NCBI RefSeq assembly: GCF_016907695.1
Contig: NZ_JAFBCK010000001.1
Span: 4,011,001 to 4,075,000, forward strand
DNA length: 64,000 nt
Direction: 5' to 3'
DNA from: Actinokineospora baliensis
GTDB lineage: Bacteria; Actinomycetota; Actinomycetes; Mycobacteriales; Pseudonocardiaceae
Position numbers and translations under genes: made by a program. Of this stretch, positions 4,455 to 11,997 are shown piece by piece. Numbering within the stretch: the stretch's first letter is position 1; each line of letters opens with the position of its first letter. A model generated the notes under the pieces. That model saw only the letters and a program-made list of their open reading frames with translations, did no database searches and was not told the origin of the DNA.

Positions 4455-5231
4455 TCAGTTCTTGGCCCAGAGAGCCGGGGTGGTGCTCGGCTCCCAGCCC
4501 GCCAACGCGGTGTGGGCCTGCAGGCAGCGGTAGGAGCCACCGTTGTAGGTCACGGTCGCGCCTGCCGCGTAGTTGGTGCCCGCCGCCCACGTGCCCGACT
4601 GCGGCGGCGTGGTCGTGGTGGTCGGCTGCGTGGTGGTCGTCGTCGGACGAGTGGTGGTCGTCGTCGGCTGCGTGGTCGTGGTGGTCGGCTGGGTGGTGGT
4701 GGTGCCACCGCCGCCGACCTGCAGGTCGACGCAGCTGTAGAAGGCCATCGCGGTGTCGGCGATGTTCCACACGGCGAGCAGCTTCACCCGGCCGGACTTG
4801 CCGCCCAGGTTGACGGTGTGGGTCTTGGTCGCACCGGGCTGCGCGCCGTTGTCGTTGAAGACCGCGACCCGCTCGCTGCCGATGAAGTATTCCCAGGTCG
4901 AGGTCGCGTGCCGGGCGGTGAGCGTCCAGGTGAAGTTCACCGAGTTGCCGACCGAGGCCGCGGGCCAGTTCTTCGACTCGTCGCTGAGCTGGGAGAACTG
5001 CGAGAGACCGCCGTGGCAGTTCTTCTGCCCCTTGGGCCCCTCGACGCTCTGCGGCTCGTAGATGACCGGGCCGCAGTTGCTGACCTTGCCCGCCGCGCAG
5101 TTGGCCTGGCGGCTGGGCGGGGAGCTGATGTAGCCGTGCGCCGCGGCCTGGCTCGCGGGCAGGGCGACCATCAACAGCGGGGCGATGGTCGCCCCTGCCG
5201 CTGCCGCGGCGAATTTGCGCTTGTGCTTCAT
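4455..5231 (-). CDS. Chitin-active lytic polysaccharide monooxygenase (AA10) with CBM5/12
   Basis: 258 residues. The start at 5231 is chosen because GGAGGAG lies just upstream; a GTG at 5249 would overlap that site. A Sec signal peptide ends at residue 31, so the mature protein begins HGYISSPPSRQ with the copper-binding His1 that defines AA10 enzymes. The catalytic domain runs to about residue 175, with paired Cys and KLLAVWNIADTAMAFYSCVD near its end. A Thr/Pro linker of repeated TTTTTQP units follows, and the last 45 residues are a carbohydrate-binding module of the CBM5/12 type (NYAAGATVTYNGGSYRCLQA). It oxidatively cleaves crystalline chitin outside the cell; cellulose as substrate is less likely given the CBM and the DasR operator upstream. 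Confidence 0.93.
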   Translation of the reverse strand: MKHKRKFAAAAAGATIAPLLMVALPASQAAAHGYISSPPSRQANCAAGKVSNCGPVIYEPQSVEGPKGQKNCHGGLSQFSQLSDESKNWPAASVGNSVNFTWTLTARHATSTWEYFIGSERVAVFNDNGAQPGATKTHTVNLGGKSGRVKLLAVWNIADTAMAFYSCVDLQVGGGGTTTTQPTTTTTQPTTTTTRPTTTTTQPTTTTTPPQSGTWAAGTNYAAGATVTYNGGSYRCLQAHTALAGWEPSTTPALWAKN

Positions 5232-5724
5232 GGTTGCGTGCTCCTCCACAGGAGTGGACGGCGTTTCCGCGGGCCGCCGTTGGCGACCCGCGCAGGGGTG
5301 GAAACGGGGAGCGGGGGACGCCGCTTCCCGTCGGGCGTCGGCCGGACCCGGACGCCGGAGGGGTTGGTGCAGTTCAGCTGGGTCTAGATGTGCTGTGGTC
5401 TAGACCATAAACGCGCCTCTGATCACCCGTCAAGACGGCGCCTACCGCCGGGTCGGCGGTAAATTCACACAACCTCGCCCACGGTCGGCCCGGCGCGCAA
5501 GCGGCCGGACGGCCTATGTCATCACCAGCTGACCCGGGCGCCCGCGTGGCGCGGACCACCCGGCGCGCCGCGCGCGGCGCGCCACGGTTGTCATGGTGGG
5601 CCGATACCCTCCGGTACCTTGGGACACCTGTTCGAGCGGCACCGGTCGCGCGGACGCCGAGCGCGGGTTCGGGGCGGGGACGACCGCCCCGGGGCCGGGA
5701 CAACAGCAGCGGGAGAACGACCCA
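5232..5724. other. Intergenic region between divergent LPMO and parE genes
   Basis: 493 bases without a convincing gene. It holds the DasR-like operator (5379-5407) on the LPMO side. The parE side must contain the topoisomerase promoter, but no clear -35/-10 pair stands out; GGGAG before the GTG at 5725 serves as ribosome site. Confidence 0.6.
5379..5407 (-). promoter_or_regulatory. DasR-type operator (dre) pair
   Basis: TGGTCTAGACCA at 5396-5407 is a perfect 12-base palindrome identical to the core of the Streptomyces DasR-responsive element. A second imperfect copy (GGTCTAGA within 5379-5390) lies immediately beside it. The pair sits about 150-175 bases upstream of the LPMO start, where a repressor responding to N-acetylglucosamine catabolites would be expected to act. 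Confidence 0.8.
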
Positions 5725-7785
5725 GTGACTGCCGAGACCCTGTACGGGGCCGACGACCTCACGCACCTGGAGGGTCTGGAGGCGGTGCGCAAGCGGCCCG
5801 GCATGTACATCGGGTCCACCGACAGCCGGGGCATCAATCACCTGTTCACCGAGATCGTCGACAACTCCACCGACGAGGGCGTCGCGGGCCACGCCAGCCG
5901 GGTGGTGGTCACCCTGCACGCCGACGGCAGCGTCCAGGTCGACGACGACGGCCGCGGCATCCCCACCGGCGTGCACGCCAAATCCGGTTTGTCCGGTGTG
6001 GAGCTGGTGCTGACCAGGCTGCACGCGGGCGGCAAGTTCGGCGGCTCCGGCTACAAGACCTCCGGCGGCCTGCACGGCGTCGGCGCCTCCGCGGTCAACG
6101 CCCTGTCGCACCGCTTCGACGTCACCGTCAAGCGCGACGGCAAGGTCTACCGGATGTCCTTTGCGCACGGCGTGCCCGGCGTGTTCGACGGCGACGGGCC
6201 CAAGGCGCCGTTCACCCGCCAGTCCGGCCTCGAGGTCGTCGGCAGGATGCGCCGCAACGACACCACCGGCACCTCCAGCCGGTATTGGTACGACGCGCGG
6301 TACTTCGAGAACGGCGCCGCGCTCGACGTCGAGTCGGTCCGCGCGAAGCTGCGCAACACCGCGTTCCTGGTCCCCGGCGTCACCTACGTGCTGCGCCAGG
6401 AGGACCCCGAGGCGCCCGGCAGGTTCGCCGAGGAGTCCTTCCAGTTCCCCAACGGCCTCGTGGACATGGTCGAGTTCCTCAGCCCTGACGGCGAGCGCGC
6501 GGTCTCCGGCACCCTCCTGGTCACCGGCGAGGGCAGCTACCAGGAGAACGCCGCCGACGAGAACGGGGTGATGCGGTCCAAGGTGGAGCGCCGCGCCGAG
6601 GTCGAGGTGGCGCTGCGCTGGGGCACCGGCTACGAGCGCACCGTGGAGTGCTTCACCAACACCATCCGCAACGTGCACGGCGGCACGCACCGCAAGGGCT
6701 TCGAGCGGGCGGCGGTCAAGGCGCTGCAGGAGGCGATCACCAAGACCCGGGGTCTGCTCAAGCCCAGGGAGGACCCGCCGACCCTCGACGACGTGCTCGA
6801 GGGCATGACCGCGGTCGTGCACGTGCGCATCCCCGAGCCGCAGTTCACCTCCCAGACCAAGGACGAGCTGTCCACCGCGGGCATCACCAAGGTCATCCAG
6901 GGCGTGGTGGACAAGCACCTGCGCGAGTGGACCGAGGACCGGCGCAGCAAGGCCGAGGCCAAGGTCGTGCTGCAGAAGATCGTCGACGCGGGCCGGGTGC
7001 GGATCGCGCAGAAGCAGCAGAAGGACGCCGCGCGCCGCAAGACCGCGCTCGAGGGCGCCGCGATGCCCGCCAAGCTCGTCGACTGCCGCACCACCGGGGT
7101 CGCGCGCAGCGAGCTGTTCCTGGTCGAGGGCGACAGCGCGCTCGGCTCGGCGCGGATGGCCAGGGTCTCGGAGTACCAGGCGCTGCTGCCGCTGCGCGGC
7201 AAGATCCTCAACGTGCAGAAGGCCAGCCTCGCCGACACCCTGCGCAACGCCGAGATCGCCGCCATCGTGCAGGTGCTCGGCGCGGGCACCGGCCGCACCT
7301 TCGACCTGGCCGCGATGCGCTACGGCCGGGTCATCCTGATGGCCGACGCCGATGTGGACGGCTCGCACATCCGGACCCTGCTGATCACCCTGTTCGCCAA
7401 GTACATGCGCCCGGTCATCGACGACGGCAGGCTCTACGCCGCGATGCCGCCGCTGCACAAGATCACCACCCGCGGCCGGGGCGCGGAGACGGTCTTCACC
7501 TTCACCCAGCGCGAGATGGAGACCACCGTGGCCCGCCTGGAGAAGGCGGGCAGGCAGGTGGTCACGCCGGTGCCCCGGTTCAAGGGCCTCGGCGAGATGG
7601 ACGCCGACGAGCTGTGGGAGACCACGATGAACCCGGCCACCCGCTCGGTGCGGCGCATCACCATGGGTGACGCCGAGGCCGCCGAGACCGCGCTGGAACT
7701 GCTGATGGGGGAGAAGGTGGAGCCGCGGCGCAACTGGCTGGTCGACTCCGCCGCCCGCGTCGACCAGTCCGCCATCGACCTCTGA
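5725..7785 (+). CDS. parE: Type IIA DNA topoisomerase subunit B (topoisomerase IV-like)
   Basis: 686 residues from GTG 5725, placed by the GGGAGAA site and by the family N-terminus (VTAETLYGADDL); a frame extending to 5593 adds non-conserved sequence. Visible parts: GHKL ATPase with EIVDNSTDEG and the glycine loop GGLHGVGASAVNALS, a transducer domain, and a TOPRIM domain with LVEGDSALGSA and MADADVDGSHIRTLL, ending in the conserved PATRSVRRI and RRNWLVDSA. It pairs with the ParC-like subunit 69 bases downstream to decatenate chromosomes and relax supercoils. It is shorter than gyrase B of Gram-negatives and resembles the second, non-gyrase set of actinobacteria (ParY in Streptomyces); the gyrase genes should lie elsewhere, near dnaA. 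Confidence 0.93.
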   Translation: MTAETLYGADDLTHLEGLEAVRKRPGMYIGSTDSRGINHLFTEIVDNSTDEGVAGHASRVVVTLHADGSVQVDDDGRGIPTGVHAKSGLSGVELVLTRLHAGGKFGGSGYKTSGGLHGVGASAVNALSHRFDVTVKRDGKVYRMSFAHGVPGVFDGDGPKAPFTRQSGLEVVGRMRRNDTTGTSSRYWYDARYFENGAALDVESVRAKLRNTAFLVPGVTYVLRQEDPEAPGRFAEESFQFPNGLVDMVEFLSPDGERAVSGTLLVTGEGSYQENAADENGVMRSKVERRAEVEVALRWGTGYERTVECFTNTIRNVHGGTHRKGFERAAVKALQEAITKTRGLLKPREDPPTLDDVLEGMTAVVHVRIPEPQFTSQTKDELSTAGITKVIQGVVDKHLREWTEDRRSKAEAKVVLQKIVDAGRVRIAQKQQKDAARRKTALEGAAMPAKLVDCRTTGVARSELFLVEGDSALGSARMARVSEYQALLPLRGKILNVQKASLADTLRNAEIAAIVQVLGAGTGRTFDLAAMRYGRVILMADADVDGSHIRTLLITLFAKYMRPVIDDGRLYAAMPPLHKITTRGRGAETVFTFTQREMETTVARLEKAGRQVVTPVPRFKGLGEMDADELWETTMNPATRSVRRITMGDAEAAETALELLMGEKVEPRRNWLVDSAARVDQSAIDL

Positions 7786-7854: not shown

Positions 7855-10800
7855 ATGGCACGCCGCAAGGCCCCCGCGACCAAGGTCGACCCCACCGCGT
7901 TCGACCGCGCGGGCGCGACCGTCGTCGACAACCCGGTGCGCACGGAGATCGAGGACTCCTACCTGGAGTACGCCTACTCGGTCATCCACTCCCGCGCGCT
8001 GCCCGACGCGCGCGACGGCCTCAAGCCGGTGCACCGCCGAATCCTGTTCTCCATGCACGAGCAGGGCTACCGGCCCACGCACGCCTACGTGAAGTCCTCC
8101 CGCGTGGTCGGCGACTGCTTCGTGCGCGGCGCGCTGGTGTCCACCCCCGGTGGTCTGCGCCCGATCCAGGAGATCGAGCTGGGTGACGCGGTGCTGGACC
8201 CGGCCGGGCTGCCGGTGCCGGTGGTGGCCGTGTACGAGAACCCGGTCTCGGAACTGGTCCGCGTGCACTGGACCAATGGGCACAGCATGCTCGTCACCCC
8301 GGGCCAGCGGTTCCGGGTCGGCACCGGCGAGTGGGTCGCCGCCCGCGACCTCGCCGGGCACAGCACGGTGGCGGGCAGCGGCGCCCGCGAGGTCACCTTC
8401 AGCGACGACGGCTCGGCCTACGTGCTCGGGCTGGTGACGGCGGCGGGAACGGCCGTGGACGGGGACGTCCGGGTCGAGTCGCTGGACTCGGCGCCGGTGG
8501 ACCTCGTGCACGGGTGGGCGATCGGCGCCGGGCTCGACGCGCGGCGCGACAAGCGCGAGGCCCGCACCCCGACCCAGCGCGACCGGCACATCCTGACCAT
8601 CGCGGGCGGCCCGCTGCCCCCGCGCGACGCGGTGCCCGCGGTGGTCCTGGCCGACCGGGCGTCATGGGCGCCCTACTTGGCTGGCCTGTTCGACGGCGCC
8701 GGGCACGTCCGGCGCGGCGCGGGCCGGATCGCGGGTGTGGCCGATCCGGCGTTGCTGCGCCAGGTGTGGTGCCTGCTCGCTGACCTGGGCATCGACGCCG
8801 AGGTGTCGGACCGGGGGATGACCGTGTCCGGCCCGGCCGCCGCCCGGCTGGCGTCGCTGCTGCTGCCCTGGGTGCGCGACGCGCACAAGCACGGTGGTCT
8901 GCTGCGGATCGCCGGTCCGGCCGCCGAGCCGGTCACCGTCGCCGCCGTGGTGCCCGCCGGGGAGGGCACCACCTACGACATCCAGGTCGGCTCCGCCGAG
9001 CACGCCTTCGTGGTCGAGGGCCACGTGGTGCACAACTGCATGGGCAAGTACCACCCGCACGGCGACACCGCGATCTACGACGCGATGGTCCGCCTCGCCC
9101 AGGACTTCTCGCTCAACGCACCGCTGGTCGACGGGCACGGCAACTTCGGCTCACCGGATGACGGCCCCGCCGCCAGCCGCTACACCGAGGCGCGGATGTC
9201 CAACGAGGCGATGCTGCTCGTCGGCGAGCTCGGCGAGGACACCGTCGACTTCCGGCCCAACTACGACGGCTCGCTGCTCGAACCGGTGGTGCTGCCAGCG
9301 GCGTTCCCGAACCTGCTGGTCAACGGGACCTCGGGCATCGCGGTCGGCATGGCCACCAACATGATCCCGCACAACCTGGGCGAGGTGGTGGCCGCCGCCA
9401 GGCACCTGATCACCCACCCGGACGCCGACCTCGACAAGCTGATGGAGTTCATCCCCGGCCCCGACCTGCCCACCGGCGGGCTGCTGCTGGGCCTCGACGA
9501 GGTCCGCAAGGCCTACGAGACCGGCCGGGGCGTGGTGCGGATGCGCGCCAAGGTGGAGATCGGCCCGCTGGAGGGCAGCCGCCGCCAGGCCATCACGGTC
9601 ACCGAGCTGCCCTACCAGGTCGGCTCGGAGAAGATCATCGAGAAGATCACCGAAGAGGTGAACAAGAGCAAGCGGCTCACCGGCATCGCCGACGTCAAGG
9701 ACCTCACCGACCGGGAGAACGGCACCCGGCTGGTGATCGAGTGCAAGGTCGGGGTGAACCCGCAGGCGCTGCTGTCGGACCTGTACCGGCTGACCCCGAT
9801 GGAGCAGTCCTTCGGCATCAACAACCTGGTGCTCGTCGACGGGCAGCCGCGCACGCTGGGCCTCAAGGCGCTGCTGGAGGTCTTCCTGCGGCACCGCTAC
9901 GAGGTGGTCACCCGGCGCACCCGCTACCGCAAGCGCAAGCGCGAGGACCGGCTGCACCTGGTCGAGGGCCTGCTGCTGGCCCTGGTCGACATCGACAAGG
10001 TCATCCGCCTGATCCGCGGCAGCGACGACGCCGCGGCCGCGAAGGCGGGCCTGATCAGCCGGTTCAAGCTCTCCGAGATCCAGGCCACCTACATCCTCGA
10101 CACGCCGCTGCGCCGCCTCACCAAGTACGACAAGCTCGAACTCGAGGAGGAGCAGGAGAAGCTGCGCCGCGAGGTCGAGGAGCTCTCGAAGATCCTCGAC
10201 GACGACAAGGTGCTGCGCCGGGTCGTGTCGACGGAGCTGGGCAAGGTCGCCAAGGACCGCACCGCCGAGCGCCGCACCTCGCTGGTCGACGGCGACCTCA
10301 AGGAGGTGCTGGCCGCCTCAAAGCCCGCCGGGCCGCTGGAGGTCACCGACGACCCGTGCCAGGTGATCCTGTCGGCGACCGGCCTGGTCGCGCGCACCGC
10401 CGCCGAGTCGGAGGAGGCCTCCGAGGGCCGCACCCGCAAGGGGCGCGCCCGCCACGACGCGGTCGCGGCGCTGGTGCACTCGACCGCGCGCGGGCAGGTC
10501 CTGCTGATCACCAACCGCGGCCGGGCGGTCAAGACCGACGTGCTGCCGCTGCCGGTGCTGCCCGAGCAGAGCGGCACCGTGTCGGTCAGCGGCGGGATGG
10601 CCGCCGGCGAACTGGTGCCGCTGTCGACGGGGGAGCGGGTGATCGGCATCGCCCCGCTCGGCGACCAGGCGGCGGGCTCACCCGGCCTGGCGCTGGGTAC
10701 CCGCCAGGGCGTGGTGAAGGTGTGCGCCCCGGAGTGGCCGGTCCGCTCCGACGAGTTCGAGGTGATCACCCTCAAGGAGGGCGACGAGGTCGTCGGAGCC

Positions 10801-11259
10801 ACCTGGCTGCGCGACGGCTCCGAGACCCTCGTGTTCGTGACGGCCGAGGCGTCCCTGCTGCGCTACGCCGCGTCCCTCGTCCGCCCCCAGGGCCTCAAGG
10901 GCGGCGGAATGGCGGGCGTCACCCTGCCCTCCGGCGGCAAGGTCGTCTTCTTCGGCGGCATCCGCATCGACGACCCCGACCACGGCGACCCCTTGGTAGT
11001 AACGTCCACCGGCCAGTCCGTCAAGGTCACCCCCTTCGCCGAATACCCCCCCAAGGGCCGAGCCACCGGCGGCGTCCGAGCCCACCGCTTCCTCAAGGGC
11101 GAAACCGCCCTGACCCTCGCCTGGATCGGCCCCCGCCCCGCAGGCTCATCCCGCACCGGCTCCGCAATAGAACTTCCCACCCCCGACCCCCGCCGCGACG
11201 CCTCCGGCCACCCCCACCCCGGCCCCGACGTCATCGGCCACTTGGTCGAGCGAGCCTAG
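7855..11259 (+). CDS. parC: Type IIA DNA topoisomerase subunit A, interrupted by an intein
   Basis: 1134 residues as encoded; removing the intein (residues 88-394) leaves 827, normal for an actinobacterial ParC. The N-extein ends at KSSRVVGD and the C-extein resumes at CMGKYHPHGD, which together rebuild the family sequence. The DNA-cleaving Tyr is residue 443 of the precursor (136 after splicing) in AASRYTEARM. Further on are the tower and coiled-coil (LELEEEQEKLRREVEELSK) and beta-pinwheel repeats. The ribosome site is a GAGAGAGAG stretch. The intein splits the winged-helix region holding the quinolone-contact segment, so the enzyme cannot work unless splicing occurs. The last 80 codons become strongly C-rich as they run toward the repeat cluster. 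Confidence 0.93.
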   Translation: MARRKAPATKVDPTAFDRAGATVVDNPVRTEIEDSYLEYAYSVIHSRALPDARDGLKPVHRRILFSMHEQGYRPTHAYVKSSRVVGDCFVRGALVSTPGGLRPIQEIELGDAVLDPAGLPVPVVAVYENPVSELVRVHWTNGHSMLVTPGQRFRVGTGEWVAARDLAGHSTVAGSGAREVTFSDDGSAYVLGLVTAAGTAVDGDVRVESLDSAPVDLVHGWAIGAGLDARRDKREARTPTQRDRHILTIAGGPLPPRDAVPAVVLADRASWAPYLAGLFDGAGHVRRGAGRIAGVADPALLRQVWCLLADLGIDAEVSDRGMTVSGPAAARLASLLLPWVRDAHKHGGLLRIAGPAAEPVTVAAVVPAGEGTTYDIQVGSAEHAFVVEGHVVHNCMGKYHPHGDTAIYDAMVRLAQDFSLNAPLVDGHGNFGSPDDGPAASRYTEARMSNEAMLLVGELGEDTVDFRPNYDGSLLEPVVLPAAFPNLLVNGTSGIAVGMATNMIPHNLGEVVAAARHLITHPDADLDKLMEFIPGPDLPTGGLLLGLDEVRKAYETGRGVVRMRAKVEIGPLEGSRRQAITVTELPYQVGSEKIIEKITEEVNKSKRLTGIADVKDLTDRENGTRLVIECKVGVNPQALLSDLYRLTPMEQSFGINNLVLVDGQPRTLGLKALLEVFLRHRYEVVTRRTRYRKRKREDRLHLVEGLLLALVDIDKVIRLIRGSDDAAAAKAGLISRFKLSEIQATYILDTPLRRLTKYDKLELEEEQEKLRREVEELSKILDDDKVLRRVVSTELGKVAKDRTAERRTSLVDGDLKEVLAASKPAGPLEVTDDPCQVILSATGLVARTAAESEEASEGRTRKGRARHDAVAALVHSTARGQVLLITNRGRAVKTDVLPLPVLPEQSGTVSVSGGMAAGELVPLSTGERVIGIAPLGDQAAGSPGLALGTRQGVVKVCAPEWPVRSDEFEVITLKEGDEVVGATWLRDGSETLVFVTAEASLLRYAASLVRPQGLKGGGMAGVTLPSGGKVVFFGGIRIDDPDHGDPLVVTSTGQSVKVTPFAEYPPKGRATGGVRAHRFLKGETALTLAWIGPRPAGSSRTGSAIELPTPDPRRDASGHPHPGPDVIGHLVERA
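8116..9036 (+). other. Intein in ParC with degenerate LAGLIDADG region
   Basis: 307 residues (88-394 of the ORF). The N-terminal splicing block starts at Cys88 (CFVRGALVSTPGG, then IELGDAVL). Block B is NGHSMLVTPGQRF, where the usual TxxH is TPGQ, so the block-B His is Gln151. Block F/G is TTYDIQVGSAEHAFVVEG followed by VVHN, with the penultimate His and terminal Asn intact, and the +1 residue is Cys395. Between the splicing halves lies an endonuclease-like region with two LAGLIDADG-type helices: VLGLVTAAG (190-198) has lost its acidic residue, while LAGLFDGAG (275-283) keeps Asp280. Homing activity is therefore probably lost. Splicing is inferred from the restored extein. Confidence 0.92.
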
Positions 11260-11379
11260 AAAGGCCCACCAACTCCTGAGCCAGCTCACCGGCTCAGCCC
11301 TGCCAGTCCGCCTCGGGCATCGGGGGTCGGCTCGTCGCCTGGCGGCGACCTCGCGACCCGGGCGGTGGGGTGTGGGGGG

Positions 11380-11526
11380 TGCTCGATGGGGCGAACTTGG
11401 TTTGCGCGGGGCCCCTGCGCTACCCGTGGCAGGACCGCAAAGCTGGGGCCGAAAAGCATGGCCCTGTCCGCGCACAACGCTACGGGCACCGCCACCCCAC
11501 ACAAACCAAGTCCGCCCCATCGAGCA
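11380..11526 (+). repeat. Palindromic element, copy 1
   Basis: 147 bases bounded by terminal inverted repeats: TGCTCGATGGGGCGAACTTG at the left, and its complement with one mismatch at the right, ending CCCCATCGAGCA. The centre contains GGGGCCGAAAAGCATGGCCC, itself a small hairpin. The core is in the opposite orientation to copies 2-4. No ORF of note is present, so it is non-autonomous or simply a structured element. Confidence 0.85.
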
Positions 11527-11546
11527 TTTAGGTGGGCGGCTTCCTG

Positions 11547-11680
11547 GGAGCGGTGGCCGGGCTGGCGGGGCTGGCTCGGTGGGCTGGGGTGGGTGGGACG
11601 GCTCGGGAGATTGTTCTGGCACCACCGCTCCCGGAAGCAGCCCACCCAAACCCAGCCCACCGAGCCAACCCCGCCAGCCC
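11547..11680. repeat. GC-rich inverted repeat between palindromic copies 1 and 2
   Basis: GGGAGCGGTGG at 11547 is matched by CCACCGCTCCC at 11622-11632, and the following GGCTGGCGGGG and GGCTCGGTGGGCTGGG blocks are matched by complementary blocks in 11641-11680. The same sequence, in reverse, flanks copy 3 near 37947-37972, so it travels with the element. Confidence 0.7.
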
Positions 11681-11740
11681 AACCACCCGACTCCGACCAC
11701 CGAACCCAGCCACTGGACACTCGGACCTTCCGGTGCCAGA

Positions 11741-11886
11741 TGCTCGATGGGGCGGACCTGTTTTGCGTGGGGGAGCGGCAGTCGTAGCGTTGTGCGCTGC
11801 AGGGCCATGCTTTTCGGCCCCAGCTTTGCGGTCCTGCCACGGCTGGCGCAGGGGCCCCGCGCAAAACAGGTTCGCCCCATCGAGCA
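11741..11886 (-). repeat. Palindromic element, copy 2
   Basis: 146 bases with ends TGCTCGATGGGGCGGACCTG and CCCCATCGAGCA. The core reads GGGCCATGCTTTTCGGCCCC on the plus strand, the reverse of copy 1. It is preceded by a CACTGGACACTCGGA segment that also precedes copy 4. Confidence 0.85.
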
Positions 11887-11997
11887 CCCCCAACCCACCA
11901 CGGACCGGGCAGCAATGCCGCAGGCGAGCCGTTGTCCAGCGCCAACCACCTCTGTACTGTGTCGGCACCCATAAACCCAATGAGGTGAGTTGCGCTC

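Follow-up and report, generated by a model that had tools for sequence, protein, structure and literature searches.

The parC locus and its insert

The window analysed here is a stretch of 64,000 nucleotides from Actinokineospora baliensis (contig NZ_JAFBCK010000001.1, positions 4,011,001 to 4,075,000), the 7.68 Mb genome of which is assembled as one contig. It contains a gene for a ParC-type A subunit of type IIA topoisomerase whose frame is enlarged by an insert, read in a first-pass annotation as an intein, that probably belongs to a splicing-competent family in which the block-B histidine is replaced by glutamine. The gene is one open frame of 1134 residues (7855-11259, forward strand) and was matched by Pfam DNA_topoisoIV (4.1e-145) and NCBIfam PRK05561 (1.1e-243), each match being split in two around the insert. 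The insert starts with Cys1, ends with VVHN and is followed by Cys+1 and MGKYHPHGD. Coordinates are collected in Table 1.

Library matches of the insert were weak (Hint_2 5.4e-5, 24 bits against a cut-off of 28.4; LAGLIDADG_3 0.0026; TIGR01443 0.026). Despite these scores it was assigned as an intein because the same junctions were read in 55/55 related loci of the family and because its modelled fold matched PI-SceI. The AlphaFold2 model, built with 12 residues of each flank, had a predicted local distance difference test score (pLDDT) of 87.2 and a predicted template modelling score (pTM) of 0.82; the best solved match to the modelled insert was PI-SceI (E 7.5e-14), and a Hint fold was recognised in the model. 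The flanks are contiguous in intein-free homologs (5/16 genomes of the genus; 46/297 of the family by sequence pattern). Judged by its sequence, the insert is an intein of an allelic family occupying a distinct site, here called site b (VVGD/E before C), of type IIA topoisomerase A subunits.

The mycobacterial GyrA intein site (site a, RY/TE) is uninterrupted in the window protein, the insertion being at VVGD/C, and the second type IIA A subunit of the genome, a GyrA (L002), carries an intein of its own at RY/TE. The annotation was thus right both in calling an intein in a ParC-type host and in placing it at a site other than that of mycobacterial GyrA. Its estimate of ~89 kDa for the spliced protein agrees with the computed 827 residues and 89.5 kDa of the ligated exteins. 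The GyrA locus of the window genome (G000:C1:1394468-1398010, L002-L004) has its intein at RY/TES with a THNH block B and with the LAGLIDADG acidic residues kept, so that its motifs look intact. The insertion site in ParC presumably lies within the quinolone-resistance-determining region.

Table 1. Features of the parC locus (window coordinates; all on the forward strand)
Feature	Coordinates	Strand	Basis or remark
parE-type gene, directly upstream of parC	5725..7785	+	DNA_gyraseB 7e-42, PRK05644 1.1e-209; open reading frame from 5593, start putative
parC N-extein, 87 residues, ends KSSRVVGD, -1 residue Asp	7855..8115	+	frame and family matches
site-b intein, 307 residues, 31.8 kDa, Cys1 to Asn307 (protein residues 88-394)	8116..9036	+	junctions, relatives, fold model
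block B, T61-P62-G63-Q64, Gln (CAG) at the position of the near-universal His	8296..8307	+	register set also by TPEHRFRV/TPDHRF of other inteins
degenerate LAGLIDADG motif 1, YVLGLVTAAG, with Ala110 in place of the acidic residue	8419..8448	+	E or D in this column in 46/80 distinct relatives
degenerate LAGLIDADG motif 2, YLAGLFDGAG, with Ala195 in place of the acidic residue	8674..8703	+	D in this column in 46/80
blocks F and G, T286, D288, H296, H306-N307	8971..9036	+	invariant in 80/80
parC C-extein, starts Cys+1 MGKYHPHGD; stop 11257-11259	9037..11259	+	frame and family matches
site a, unoccupied (Tyr443/Thr444, RY/TEA), GyrA-type intein site	9181..9186	+	filled in the ParC of some relatives

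Block B and the splicing residues

Block B of the window intein reads VTPGQRFR, and its register was fixed by other inteins reading TPEHRFRV (L151) and TPDHRF (L154). Glutamine was found at the histidine position in 80/80 distinct site-b inteins, 66 with a CAG codon and 14 with CAA. The locus at a contig end (L055) was left out of the script reading, and two genomes, G088 (L166/L095) and G400 (L107/L108, on two contigs), stand outside the 80; G088 is among the 55 family genomes and block B of G400 was read separately. The named-genome scan, which supplied 57 of the 80 sequences, used Gln-containing and N-terminal patterns, and its 58 loci are no independent test of the glutamine because the patterns contained it. 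Samples drawn without a Gln motif gave the same residue: 55/55 family loci, 9/9 Micromonospora loci, G400 (TPGQ), G751 (TTGQ) and G648 (TPSQ). No site-b member with a block-B histidine was found among the Actinomycetota site-b inteins read. As controls, histidine was present in 20/20 distinct site-a inteins of ParC or GyrA (THNH 5, SENH 14, SHNH 1), in 10 inteins of 7 other loci from the phylum search (8 confirmed by script, two of L148 by eye) and in 2/2 phage relatives.

C1, T61, D288, H296, H306, N307 and Cys+1 were invariant in the 80 site-b inteins, and the -1 residue was Asp in 78 and Glu in 2. The arginines of TPGQRFR were considered as compensating residues and dropped; position 67 is Arg in 68/80 (the rest H, M, K, W or Q) and position 65 is Arg in 78, Leu in 1 and Lys in 1.

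All 80 sequences have the Cys1, terminal Asn and Cys+1 of class 1 inteins, together with TxxQ in place of TxxH at block B. The label class-1-like was used because TxxH is near-universal and not absolute, the Tko CDC21-1 intein lacking it and splicing, according to the passages of PMC4031507 consulted. Class 3 does not apply: position F4 is Asp288 in 80/80 instead of Cys, and Cys1 is present.

According to passages of a 2014 review, no intein residue is more conserved than His B:10, and the two inteins named as lacking it are a pseudogene and the Lys-compensated Tko CDC21-1 (PMC4031507; also parts of PMC7765530 and PMC6333167). A family with Gln fixed in both its complete and its minimal members corresponds to neither. 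No ParC intein or TxxQ family was described in the open-access literature searched, subscription papers and intein databases lying outside the search. In a passage of PMC9348778, 23 intein-containing archaeal GyrA sequences are mentioned with no site given; site b may be present among them.

Distribution and descent

The window intein shares 87% identity with that of A. diospyrosa. Within the genus, site b was filled in 11/16 genomes and empty in 5/16, with at least 5 changes of occupancy on the host tree. The family search matched 63 of 297 genomes; 8 weak matches (E 1e-7 to 1e-5) were left unread, and strong site-b relatives were read in the other 55, all with VVGD/E before C...HN followed by C, and no stop in the frames of these 55 loci. 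A further 46 genomes showed the empty pattern, ParC identity being confirmed for the 5 genus members among them, and the remaining 196 were outside the ParC-gene check. The annotation's implied novelty of the junction is not supported for this genome by these counts, and the idea of a unique window intein was dropped, the intein being common in the family search.

Beyond the family, the named-genome scan gave 58 site-b loci in Pseudonocardiaceae and Micromonosporaceae, and an order sample of 397 genomes gave 21 with matches, 10 of these outside the family. A phylum sample of 396 genomes gave two further site-b inteins (G751 and G648), both in GyrA of other Actinomycetota. When the classes of G648 and G751 were searched for more GyrA site-b inteins, only the starting genomes matched (1/40 and 1/39). 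The GyrA of G751 (L186), from another class of the phylum, has both sites filled, site b by an intein with TTGQ and RY/TE by one with TGTH.

Residue +1 was Cys in 80/80 occupied sites; the 46 pattern-matched empty sites had mostly Val (32), otherwise Cys (10) or Thr (4). One empty site with Cys (G236) is placed among occupied Actinokineospora on the tree. Such Cys-bearing empty sites may be scars of precise loss, the alternative being that they are pre-adapted targets. Shortened site-b forms clustered partly against the host tree. The glutamine of the site-b family appears to predate the split of the hosts seen here.

ParC inteins were also found at RY/TE in 6/16 genus genomes (G045, G136, G228, G078, G119, G100), alone or together with site b. 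Four of these (L177, L182, L183 and L184, from G228, G078, G119 and G100) have Ser for Thr at B7 (SENH), and the single ParC of L177 has inteins at both sites. In Kutzneria sp. 744 (L040) the intein-bearing parC frame breaks after ~556 residues of exteins, either by assembly error or as a pseudogene; this locus, broken after the insert, was left out of the trees.

A search for a phage source gave none. In phages, tblastn with the window intein returned partial matches below 60% (32 records), and with the G648 intein distant TerL/helicase-type inteins (38 records). The plasmid search returned 3 Leptospira HINT-domain matches covering 26% of the query. Four scans of viral contigs gave no site-b match, the single match of one of these scans (L154) being another intein with His.

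Decay of the endonuclease

The Hint blocks of the window intein enclose a LAGLIDADG endonuclease that is intact in relatives of ~435 residues and wholly deleted in two genus relatives (Hint-only, 129-130 residues). The window copy has Ala at both catalytic acidic positions, against both acidic in 46/80 relatives, and is ~120 residues shorter than the 435-residue forms. Its homing endonuclease looks dead; neither this nor the absence of the block-B histidine had been remarked on in the first-pass annotation.

Both acidic residues were kept in 42/42 site-b inteins of at least 425 residues. Among the 38 shorter forms 34 lacked both, and 4 (337, 353, 360 and 368 residues) kept both. Site-b inteins of the genus measured 435, 353, 334, 327, 307, 307, 265, 265, 265, 130 and 129 residues. 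These sequences suggest an order of decay in which the C-terminal ~75-120 residues are lost first, the catalytic residues next and the whole domain last. On a 69-row host tree made by a quick method, 64 rows are occupied (36 with an intact endonuclease, 28 with a decayed one), and at least 6 changes between the two states are needed. Omega was 0.33-0.45 in the endonuclease remnant against 0.13-0.16 in intact endonucleases, and 0.01-0.16 in the flanking exteins, indicating strong constraint on the latter.

Flanking features

Downstream of parC (window 11345-11921) nested inverted repeats were found, with arms of 122 nucleotides (89%), 58 nucleotides (84%) and 32 nucleotides around TGCTCGATGGGGCG. 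Near parE, on the reverse strand (window 4455-5249), lies a gene with LPMO_10 and CBM_5_12 domains, of the secreted polysaccharide monooxygenase type.

Proposed mechanism and alternative explanations

As a whole, the data are best explained by a splicing-competent, class-1-like intein family that lost its block-B histidine long ago and was kept by selection on splicing after homing had died; we consider this explanation likely. It draws on the retained Hint residues (Cys1, Thr B7, Asp F4, His F13, the His-Asn end and Cys+1) and on the series of intact, dead and deleted endonucleases. The site-b intein would still splice by the four class 1 steps. Cys1 would attack the carbonyl of the -1 Asp, the N-extein would be transferred to Cys+1, and Asn307 would cyclise to leave the 827-residue ParC. 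The change from His to Gln would have occurred in the site-b family before its spread into the present hosts. Gln64 appears to have taken over part of the histidine's role, in which it might hydrogen-bond and strain the scissile amide or the tetrahedral intermediate. Once the endonuclease had decayed, the intein would have been retained by selection, because a copy that failed to splice would ruin ParC and precise excision seldom happens.

Several points weigh against this explanation. The role of Gln64 is read from its conservation, and splicing of the window intein is predicted from sequence and model. Inteins that lose the block-B histidine usually carry out step 1 poorly or not at all (passages of PMC7765530 and PMC10663303). 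In Ssp DnaB M86 a bulky residue compensates (passage of PMC6333167), and the -1 Asp of the window protein is not of that kind. Hint omega ranged from 0.08 to 0.29 and was higher in groups with dead endonucleases (0.19-0.29) than in intact groups (0.08-0.17), so the splicing part is also somewhat relaxed. Intein and host distances agreed weakly (Mantel 0.27, reached in 0/999 permutations, 62 rows); descent is therefore not simply vertical, and lineages have probably exchanged inteins or evolved at uneven rates.

The first-pass annotation had proposed that splicing controls topoisomerase activity. Sharpened by a slow Gln-type first step, this would make conditional splicing a post-translational switch of ParC, which we regard as unlikely. 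Unspliced ParC is plausibly inactive, as the insert sits just before the HPHGD loop; mini-forms persist without homing, and conditional splicing is described for other inteins (PMC7360933 and PMC6195587). No signal, redox pair or regulatory feature turned up, although none was sought, and a needed switch looks unlikely because occupancy is patchy, 5/16 genus genomes living without the intein.

Slightly less probable still is a dying intein, in which the change from His to Gln makes splicing poor and most of the precursor stays unspliced or is cleaved, ParC being dispensable since gyrase is enough. The normal need for the block-B histidine and the pseudogene state of one known His-less intein (passages of PMC4031507 and PMC7765530) would fit it, as would the dead window endonuclease and the raised Hint omega. 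Against it, every other splicing residue and Cys+1 is kept in 80/80 sequences, the frames of the 55 family loci are free of stops, and the glutamine is equally present in 42/42 full-length forms with intact-looking endonucleases. The flanking exteins are strongly constrained, and G751 and G648 carry the site-b intein in GyrA. GyrA is an essential gene. That the insert is instead a class 2, class 3 or bacterial intein-like domain starting by another route, as the missing histidine might hint, is hardly credible given a conserved topoisomerase as host, Cys1 and F4 Asp in 80/80 where the class 3 signature has Cys (passage of PMC7765530), and a His-Asn end followed by Cys.

Relation to known inteins and significance

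Relative to Mxe GyrA ('GyrA-a', RY/TE), the site-b intein lies ~49 residues upstream, has Gln instead of His at block B and shows no close sequence kinship (match to 1am2 at E 0.17, over the last 34 residues only). It resembles PI-SceI and other bifunctional LAGLIDADG inteins in having a Hint domain with an inserted two-motif endonuclease domain, and differs in the substitutions and shortening described above. Natural absence of the block-B histidine is shared with Tko CDC21-1 and its orthologs, of which Tko CDC21-1 splices (passages of PMC4031507 and PMC6333167); there, however, Lys58 compensates, the -1 residue is Leu and the host protein differs, whereas in the site-b family Gln invariably fills the histidine position, with Asp/Glu at -1. 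The DnaB intein of Arthrobacter FB24 (Arth_1007) likewise lacks the histidine (passage of PMC4031507), but is a degraded pseudogene, unlike the site-b family with its invariant splicing residues.

The block-B histidine is regarded as indispensable, or close to it, for the first splicing step, and a fixed-Gln family would allow Q-to-H and Q-to-A swaps to probe the real role of this position. We put at roughly even chances the wider proposal that site b of GyrA/ParC holds an old, actinobacteria-wide clade with Gln as its native block-B catalyst, a different start to splicing and natural minimal forms of 129-130 residues, in which invariance of the catalyst has outlived the endonuclease. Graded loss of the endonuclease at one site in one genus, from 435 to 129 residues, bears on how inteins persist after homing has died. 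In A. baliensis itself, ParC and GyrA would each need splicing.
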